In this document: one piece after another, positions 28,927-30,010 of the stretch
Layout of the letters: the number at the start of each line of letters is the position of its first letter
How positions within the stretch are numbered: the stretch's first letter is position 1
Source of the DNA: Olivibacter jilunii
GTDB taxonomy: Bacteria > Bacteroidota > Bacteroidia > Sphingobacteriales > Sphingobacteriaceae
Direction of reading: 5' to 3'
DNA: 64,000 nt
Assembly (NCBI RefSeq): GCF_900607235.1
Contig: NZ_LR027848.1
Span: forward strand, 124,001-188,000
Notes under the pieces: model-generated
Database searches by the model: none
The model's input: the letters and a program-made list of their open reading frames with translations, nothing else
Told to the model about the DNA's origin: nothing
Translations under genes and position numbers: made by a program

Positions 28927-29181
28927 TTACTTAGCCCTTTCTAAAATTTCAACTAATCTCCAATTTTTAGTTTTACTCAGCGGACGAGTTTCCATAATCA
29001 ACACCGTATCGCCGATACCGCAGGTGTTTTGTTCGTCATGAGCCTTGAATTTGGTAGTTTTCTTTACGAACTTACCATAGATAGGGTGTTTTACTTTACG
29101 TTCAACAGCCACTACAATGGATTTATCCATTTTGTTGCTTACTACCAAGCCGATCCTTGTTTTTCTTAAATTTCTTTCCAT
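28927..29181 (-). CDS. rpsQ: 30S ribosomal protein S17
   Basis: S17 is an OB-fold primary 16S rRNA-binding protein. It has 84 residues, with [20 protein letters not shown] and [20 protein letters not shown] and the terminal [19 protein letters not shown]. It lies 12 bp after rpmC and 1 bp before rplN. Confidence 0.99.
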
Positions 29182-29193
29182 TTTCGACTTAAA

Positions 29194-29424
29194 TTATTGC
29201 GCTTCAGCGGCTGTTTCCTGTGCTTGTTTAGCTTCTGCATTTTTAATCGCAGAAAGTGCTGTATTTAAACGAGCAATTAACTTTCTAGCTGTTTTAATCC
29301 GAAGCGGATTCTCTATAGCAGAAACAGCATGAGCAAATTTCAACTTATTGAGGGCAGCCTTTTCTTCTGCGATACGGGCTACTAGTTCCTCTTTTGACAA
29401 TTCTAAAATTTCTGAATTTTTCAT
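29194..29424 (-). CDS. rpmC: 50S ribosomal protein L29
   Basis: L29 is a two-helix protein at the polypeptide exit, part of the docking platform for SRP and trigger factor. It has 76 residues; the core IAEEKAALNKLKFAHAVSAI and RIKTARKLIARLNT are followed by a short Ala/Glu-rich C-terminal tail. It is separated from rplP by an unusually wide 163-bp spacer holding three hairpins. Confidence 0.97.
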   Translation of the reverse strand: MKNSEILELSKEELVARIAEEKAALNKLKFAHAVSAIENPLRIKTARKLIARLNTALSAIKNAEAKQAQETAAEAQ

Positions 29425-29517
29425 TTGAATAATTCGTTTTAAAGTAATGGATCCACCTTTTAACAGGAATTATCCACCTTCTTATTTGTTGTTGTGTCTA
29501 TTTAACCAATTTGTTTA

Positions 29518-29579
29518 TGGCTTTTTCAAGCCAGTTAGTACGGGCCTGGTAACGGCAGGCCCGCCAACAAACGGCGGGC
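29518..29579 (-). promoter_or_regulatory. Three hairpins, two mutually exclusive, between rplP and rpmC
   Basis: On the minus strand the transcript leaves rplP and meets GCCCGCC/GGCGGGC (29559-29565 with 29573-29579, 7-nt loop). Then comes CGGGCCTG/CAGGCCCG (29541-29548 with 29556-29563, 7-nt loop), then TGGCTT/AAGCCA (29518-29523 with 29528-29533). The first two stems share bases 29559-29563 and cannot both form. There is no U-run. The GC-rich switch-like layout suggests regulation but is unproven. Confidence 0.6.
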
Positions 29580-29587
29580 TAGACGAT

Positions 29588-30010
29588 TTATGCTTCTACG
29601 TAATCTCTACGTATAACGAACTTGGTTTGTACCGGAAGCTTCTGAGCAGCTAAGCGCAAAGCTTCTTTCGCCACTTCCAAAGGAACCCCTTCTGCCTCAA
29701 ATAACATGCGGCCCGGGCGAACAACTGCTACCCAATACTCGGGTGCACCCTTACCCTTACCCATACGAACCTCAGCAGGTTTCTTTGTAACGGGTTTATC
29801 GGGGAAGATACGGATCCAAACTTGACCTTCACGTTTCATATAACGGGTTACCGCAATACGAGCCGCTTCAATCTGACGGCTGGTAATCCATGCCGGTTCT
29901 AATGATTTTATACCGAAAGATCCGAAAGCCAGCTCAGCACCACGTCCGGCATTACCCTTCATGCGGCCTTTCTGCATCTTTCTGAACTTCGTTCTTTTTG
30001 GCTGTAACAT
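29588..30010 (-). CDS. rplP: 50S ribosomal protein L16
   Basis: L16 organises the A-site tRNA and 5S/23S architecture of the large subunit. It has 140 residues, starting [20 protein letters not shown], with [40 protein letters not shown] and [21 protein letters not shown]. It lies 54 bp after rpsC, across a small GCTGTC/GACAGC hairpin (30033-30048). Confidence 0.99.

Follow-up and report, generated by a model that had tools for sequence, protein, structure and literature searches.

We observed directly that the spacer between rplP and rpmC in the window (the whole 64,000-nucleotide stretch of DNA analysed here) encodes a hairpin with a covarying stem and a constant seven-nucleotide loop, CCGUUAC, and that the same hairpin stands at the same place, between rplP and rpmC, in two further groups of Bacteroidota. 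A stem that changes freely around a constant seven-letter loop in distant Bacteroidota lineages suggests a control element that is recognised by something, perhaps rRNA. We consider it probable that the spacer contains an undescribed ribosomal leader that controls rpmC-rpsQ and is recognised in trans through the fixed loop CCGUUAC. We infer this recognition in trans, the level at which control would act (translation, rather than transcription or decay) and the sign of control.

The rplP-rpmC spacer and its hairpins

Since rplP and rpmC are both encoded on the minus strand, the mRNA carries the reverse complement of the letters as first viewed. In the direction of the mRNA, the rplP stop is followed by arm a (GCCCGCC), arm b (GGCGGGC, continuing into CTG), the loop CCGTTAC, arm c (CAGGCCCG), a third stem and rpmC (Table 1). 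In forward-strand letters, the main hairpin is formed by the perfectly complementary strands CGGGCCTG (29541–29548) and CAGGCCCG (29556–29563), which enclose the 7 nt loop CCGUUAC in the mRNA, and the second by the equally perfect pair GCCCGCC (29559–29565) and GGCGGGC (29573–29579). The two hairpins overlap at 29559–29563, so that arm b can pair with either a or c; the initial annotation had pointed out both stems and their shared bases, and its letters and coordinates are correct. The third stem that it listed (29518–29523 with 29528–29533) exists, but is not conserved between close relatives. Folding of the RNA from 29425 to 29590, the spacer plus stop codon, gave a predicted energy of −50.1 kcal/mol compared with −33.7 ± 4.0 kcal/mol for shuffled sequences (z −4.1), and none of 200 shuffles was as low. 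The predicted outer helix P1 is missing from the fold of the leader cut at 115 nt; an analogous P1 covaries in Sphingobacterium.

Table 1. Features of the rplP-rpmC region, in positions of the window.
Feature	Position	Strand	Basis or remark
rplP (L16), gene before the leader	29588–30010	−	ORF
rplP-rpmC spacer holding the leader	29425–29587	−	163 bp; ORF calls; one genomic copy
Predicted outer helix P1, 5' arm GUCUA	29580–29584 (3' arm 29496–29500)	−	Minimum-energy fold of full spacer
Arm a (GCCCGCC), competitor able to pair with arm b	29573–29579	−	Found in 4 of 5 own-genus genomes
Predicted inner helix P2, 5' arm	29566–29575 (3' arm 29505–29515)	−	Minimum-energy fold only
Arm b (GGCGGGC), common to the a-b hairpin and P3	29559–29565	−	
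Apical hairpin P3	29540–29564	−	5' arm 29556–29564, loop 29549–29555, 3' arm 29540–29548; fold and covariation (40 and 37 related hairpins)
Heptaloop CCGUUAC	29549–29555	−	Fully complementary to GUAACGG, the 7-nt loop at 257 in the genome's own 16S rRNA
Third hairpin TGGCTT/AAGCCA, 4-nt loop	29518–29533 (arms 29518–29523, 29528–29533)	−	Fold
rpmC (L29), first gene behind the leader	29194–29424	−	ORF; tblastn in relatives
rpsQ (S17), second gene behind the leader	28927–29181	−	ORF

The second ORF behind the leader is one that we take, from its sequence, to be rpsQ; a tblastn search with it recovered the same gene order in two Sphingobacterium loci. Farther down the same operon stands rpsH. The distance from the end of P1 to the rpmC start has a median of 16 nt in Sphingobacterium (63 leaders, range 13–77) and is 71 nt in the window. 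Some 50–65 nt of extra sequence lies between leader and rpmC start in the window (29425–29477, minus strand) and in seven other loci (L003, L174, L186, L191–L193 and L215). These stretches look like independent insertions, and some of them make a mini-ORF near the old start position, which in the window reads GTG GAT AAT TCC TGT TAA (29460–29477).

Neither a repeat nor a known RNA family accounts for the spacer. A dispersed palindromic repeat, which had been named as a possible refutation of a regulatory role, was ruled out, as both the spacer and the a-b palindrome are unique in the 6.7-Mb genome. Although the genome holds 51 GCCGTTACC sites, among the 30 inspected the leader alone has a stem of more than four pairs. 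Searches against Rfam found nothing but a tRNA across the window, with no match to the spacer at gathering score, and six related loci gave none at or below E 0.1.

Distribution and covariation of the CCGUUAC hairpin

The initial annotation had remarked on the width of the spacer, and it is indeed unusual: among 80 named Bacteroidota-type loci, 79 had measurable spacers, 50 of which are 15 nt or shorter. Within the Sphingobacteriaceae, where the spacer was read in 107 genomes from 21 genera (a subset of the 380 genomes in which rplP was matched, skewed to Sphingobacterium, g16), spacer length runs from 20 to 174 nt. CCGTTAC is present in the spacer of 81 of these 107 genomes, from 6 of the 21 genera, namely Sphingobacterium (63/63), Parapedobacter (g4, 9/9), the window's own genus (g1, 5/5), g17 (2/2), g18 (1/1) and g19 (1/1). 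It is absent from the other 26 genomes (15 genera), whose spacers often hold other hairpins. The stems vary in sequence yet pair, with the exceptions of one g17 genome (L009), which has a mismatch beside the closing pair, and the g19 genome (L016), which has only three unbroken pairs.

Of the 79 measurable spacers from named loci, 7 carry the loop, these being four Sphingobacterium or Parapedobacter loci together with L069, L083 and L095, and 72 lack it. Relatives of L069 have it in 27 of 30 loci, which are all 27 of the spacers of at least 40 nt; in this lineage the stem is nearly pure A-T and the loop, which remains CCGTTAC, keeps its G+C. Relatives of L083, a Bacteroidales-type set, have the loop in 10 of 30 loci and lack it in 20, and in the loop-bearers a promoter-like sequence, TTG...TAACTTTG, precedes the hairpin within the spacer. 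When 110 loci of about 2.6–4.4 kb (L003–L112) were searched on either strand for CCGTTAC hairpins with at least four stem pairs, all 15 that were found sit on the coding strand between rplP and rpmC; the loci were chosen around rplP, and this count is uninformative for the rest of the genomes.

A class-wide search of 396 genomes with a model of the hairpin, under stricter filters, missed the window's own site and is thus uninformative on absence or on other places. It gave 44 matches in 40 genomes. Among 30 inspected, two were Sphingobacterium rpmC leaders, one (L257) was a 16S gene read in antisense, and ORFs of the window's ribosomal-protein operon matched none of the remaining 27; the match in L230 falls within coding sequence.

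Other structures were seen in spacers of this junction. Thirteen loci from other Sphingobacteriaceae genera (L012, L014, L017, L018, L216–L218, L220–L224 and L226) have AAGTTGTAAGTT-like repeat units that fold as A-T-rich hairpins, and four Pedobacter or Pedobacter-like loci (L019, L039, L040 and L042) have a different hairpin that is similar among the four. In the Bacteroidales-type loci L289–L318 nearly all long spacers contain a promoter-like TAAC/TATCTTTGCA followed by CCTTTTT, and relatives there that have no heptaloop bear another hairpin, for example CCCC-TGAAA-CGGGG in L299.

The initial annotation had proposed a covariation analysis of the spacer and had named a lack of conservation or compensatory change in relatives as a refutation; compensatory changes are strong in relatives. 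The first alignment (A1) comprised 40 distinct hairpins, mostly from Sphingobacteriaceae, each with at least three pairs beside the loop, a requirement that leaves the six outer pairs unbiased. In it 94.2% of cells are paired, all nine pairs have double changes (112 double-changed cells compared with 25.2 after shuffling), and the covariation score is 0.934 compared with 0.243 for shuffled alignments and at most 0.204 for slid controls. A further alignment across three lineages (A3) comprised 37 hairpins out of about 54 distinct ones, near-duplicates, L009 and the bulged L356 having been left out; here 92.5% of cells are paired, 146 cells are double-changed compared with 45.6 in shuffled alignments, the score is 1.110 compared with 0.257, and all nine stem pairs covary. 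The closing pair in the first set of hairpins collected is G-C in 70 cases, A-T in 14 and T-A in 3.

In both alignments the seven loop bases are the sole invariant columns. Since the hairpins were collected via CCGTTAC, this constancy is partly by construction. Independent support comes from the presence of the loop in every spacer read from Sphingobacterium, Parapedobacter and the window's own genus (63/63, 9/9 and 5/5) and from the finding of only a single near-variant hairpin loop in spacers without CCGTTAC, a CCGAAAC with four pairs in L307.

For 51 Sphingobacterium leaders the whole structure could be aligned (P1, an internal loop UAA/AC, P2 and P3), with 98.9% of cells paired and double changes at 13 of 18 pairs. 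The outer helices differ from genus to genus. Outside the window's own genus the hairpin is predicted at a probability of 0.5 or less in 9 of 104 leaders. A pseudoknot between the loop and an upstream GGUAAU was considered and rejected as a general feature: it is possible in Sphingobacterium, where both parts are invariant, but g17 and the window's own genus have no GGUAAU.

Readings of the constant loop

In a ribosomal leader of the kind that we favour, an RNA operator placed within a ribosomal-protein mRNA or at its head would control rpmC-rpsQ and probably the genes behind as well. The RNA would fold as outer helices and an apical hairpin, a ligand that reports on ribosome assembly would bind the loop CCGUUAC in trans, and binding would alter the access of ribosomes to the rpmC start. 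The candidate ligand would be a ribosomal protein of the operon or helix 11 of 16S rRNA. Two properties that mark ribosomal leaders are found here, a conserved RNA structure that covaries and a consistent position upstream of ribosomal-protein genes, in loci that were chosen around rplP.

The stable fold and the site within a long operon would also suit a hairpin that serves mRNA processing or stability at an operon junction and has no specific ligand. Such a hairpin, however, would leave unexplained both the constant 7-nt loop on freely varying stems and the same loop in a lineage with a promoter-like sequence ahead of the hairpin in the spacer, and we think this account quite unlikely. The initial annotation had guessed at an RNA switch or a protein-binding leader on the strength of the overlapping stems. 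The leader half of its second suggestion is the better part of that guess, given that the CCGUUAC hairpin is conserved, with strong compensatory change, at the same place in three lineages; a co-transcriptional switch or attenuator made of the two overlapping hairpins appears improbable. In the four own-genus genomes that have arm a, the a-b pairing is predicted at 0.94–0.995 at 48 nt, when arm c has just been made, and at no more than 0.004 in the complete leader, so that the competing hairpin would form first and then yield, and one substitution in arm b has its counterpart in a as well as in c. That change in arm a, though, fits helix P2 equally and is a single event, and the fifth genome of the genus has no arm a. 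Moreover, with a competitor defined as an arm at least 0.7 paired and at −10 kcal/mol or below before the 3' arm exists, no equally strong one was found in 104 other distinct leaders (two, L010 and L214, are partial and five have weak helices of 7–10 pairs), and a search of 29400–29620 for terminator-like sites, including an alternative hairpin with a T-run, returned none. The conserved element is the b-c hairpin; a-b is a local addition, which may have a role or none.

Among ligands for the proposed leader, we explored mimicry of rRNA. CCGTTAC does not occur on the sense strand of the rRNA operon, and the loop was rejected as an rRNA mimic; two single-mismatch forms among those tried do occur there, CCGTAAC within the 23S part and CCCTTAC within 16S. 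Mimicry by the outer helices of the S8 site in 16S helix 21, giving a uS8 operator like that of the Escherichia coli spc operon, is highly improbable. The Sphingobacterium strands GGUAAUGUC and GAUAACCC do recall the 16S strands UAAGUC and GAUAC, which we take to be those of the S8 site, and rpsH lies farther down the operon. Against this, Parapedobacter has a regular helix at the same place (UGUC/GACA, UGCC/GGUA), two Sphingobacterium leaders change G-U to A-U at the S8-like strands, the Sphingobacterium leader model matches nothing in the rRNA operon up to E 10, and the window's own genus is without such strands. What was found is a partial likeness to the helix 21 S8 core, in Sphingobacterium only.

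A more specific form of the leader reading, which we put forward tentatively and hold to be possible rather than probable, is that the leader senses rRNA, CCGUUAC kissing the GUAACGG loop of helix 11 (as we name the 16S loop at position 257) on rRNA or on pre-30S particles without S17. Free helix 11 would then tune the synthesis of L29 and S17, and binding of S17 to helix 11 would end the signal. S17 contacts 16S helices 7, 9, 11 and 21, as described in PMC3359968, and its gene, rpsQ, stands second behind the leader. Both loops have 7 nt and are exactly complementary, the predicted 7-bp duplex has an energy of −8.2 kcal/mol, and the chance that a random 7-mer complements an rRNA heptaloop with at least three stem pairs is about 1.0%. 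GUAACGG is present in all 15 loop-bearing genomes with a readable 16S gene, all of them Sphingobacteriaceae. The phylum also offers an analogue in rpsU, autoregulated through mRNA-16S pairing that is otherwise blocked by bS21, which would be a precedent for the idea of sensing rRNA rather than evidence for the helix 11 case.

Several observations weigh against the helix 11 match, which is itself post hoc. No covariation between the leader loop and helix 11 was seen, and none of the 15 readable loop-bearing genomes has a variant helix 11. A readable 16S was available for eight loop-less genera; the helix 11 loop is GUAACGG in five of them, GUAAUGG (which might still pair with the leader loop through wobble) in two and GCAACGG in one, and the association by genus is not significant (about 0.15). 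Besides its 16S position, the heptamer is found once in the 23S part, and 26% of all 7-mers have a match somewhere along the rRNA operon transcript. The helix 11 loop of the genome itself has only three unbroken stem pairs and drops out of the set of heptaloops at a cut-off of four. In the Bacteroidales-type set, where the search pattern was too loose and most genomes yielded no 16S, G789 and G804, both loop-less, have likely real 16S genes with GUAACGG. Loops complementary to variant helix 11 (CCATTAC, CCGTTGC) were not found as spacer hairpins in seven loci of variant-bearing or related genera. One CCATTAC, the complement of GUAAUGG, was set aside: it has eight flanking pairs including G-T and lies at about position 3873 in L039 and L040, roughly 1.4 kb downstream of the spacer, where we took it as coding, since it reads as TTITGQQ of rplE.

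Across 93 Sphingobacterium genomes, of which drafts without 16S cannot show variants, there was one match to the variant helix 11 pattern (L288, G277:C130). The 16S gene concerned is only about 73–76% identical to Sphingobacteriaceae 16S genes although it lies within a Sphingobacterium assembly, and its contig is probably a contaminant.

Relation to known ribosomal leaders

Ribosomal leaders without resemblance to rRNA have been described before in Bacteroidia (PMC7247131). Table 1 of Eckert and Weinberg (2020, PMC7247131) includes leaders in Bacteroidia/Flavobacteria (L13, S4, S15, S16) and none for rpmC/uL29 or rpsQ/uS17, and the main text of that article contains none of the terms uL29, uS17, rpmC and Sphingobacteri. 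A 2024 review has no mention of uL29 and one incidental mention of uS17 (PMC10931766), and rpmC and rplP are absent from the main text of a human-microbiome survey and of a 50-genome survey. Our literature search found no rpmC/rpsQ leader and no mRNA-16S kissing in these operons.

How the S10/spc cluster is balanced outside the gamma-proteobacteria is little known, as the same review says for spc (PMC10931766), and the leader would give a concrete, sequence-defined handle on control of this cluster in cultivable Sphingobacterium. The E. coli spc operator for uS8 sits at rplE and mimics helix 21, as outlined in that review (PMC10931766). The leader proposed here would likewise control the same gene cluster through one RNA site, but it lies upstream of rpmC, and helix 21 mimicry is unsupported. 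Like the listed ribosomal leaders, it has an RNA structure that covaries and lies immediately ahead of ribosomal-protein genes; unlike them, all lineages here have in common a single hairpin with an unchanging 7-nt loop, and this loop copies no rRNA sequence.

Bacteroidota hardly use Shine-Dalgarno pairing. In Flavobacterium johnsoniae, the rpsU mRNA base-pairs with a part of 16S rRNA that becomes accessible in the absence of bS21, and the gene thereby regulates itself, an arrangement that the same article predicts widely in Bacteroidota (PMC9976891). If the leader loop pairs with helix 11, a ribosomal-protein mRNA of the same phylum would similarly pair with a part of 16S that the encoded protein masks, and the state of assembly would be read by RNA-RNA contact rather than by a free ribosomal protein. 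The two cases differ in that in rpsU an extended Shine-Dalgarno sequence pairs linearly with the 3' tail of 16S, which that article reports as experimentally proven (PMC9976891), whereas a loop-loop contact with helix 11 is predicted here. Were that prediction true, direct pairing of an mRNA with 16S, at the place that the encoded protein occupies, would with the leader and rpsU become a recurring principle of feedback in Bacteroidota. In its geometry the contact would resemble the kissing of RNA I and RNA II of ColE1, a plasmid antisense pair with two fully complementary 7-nt loops, except that the partner here would be rRNA.
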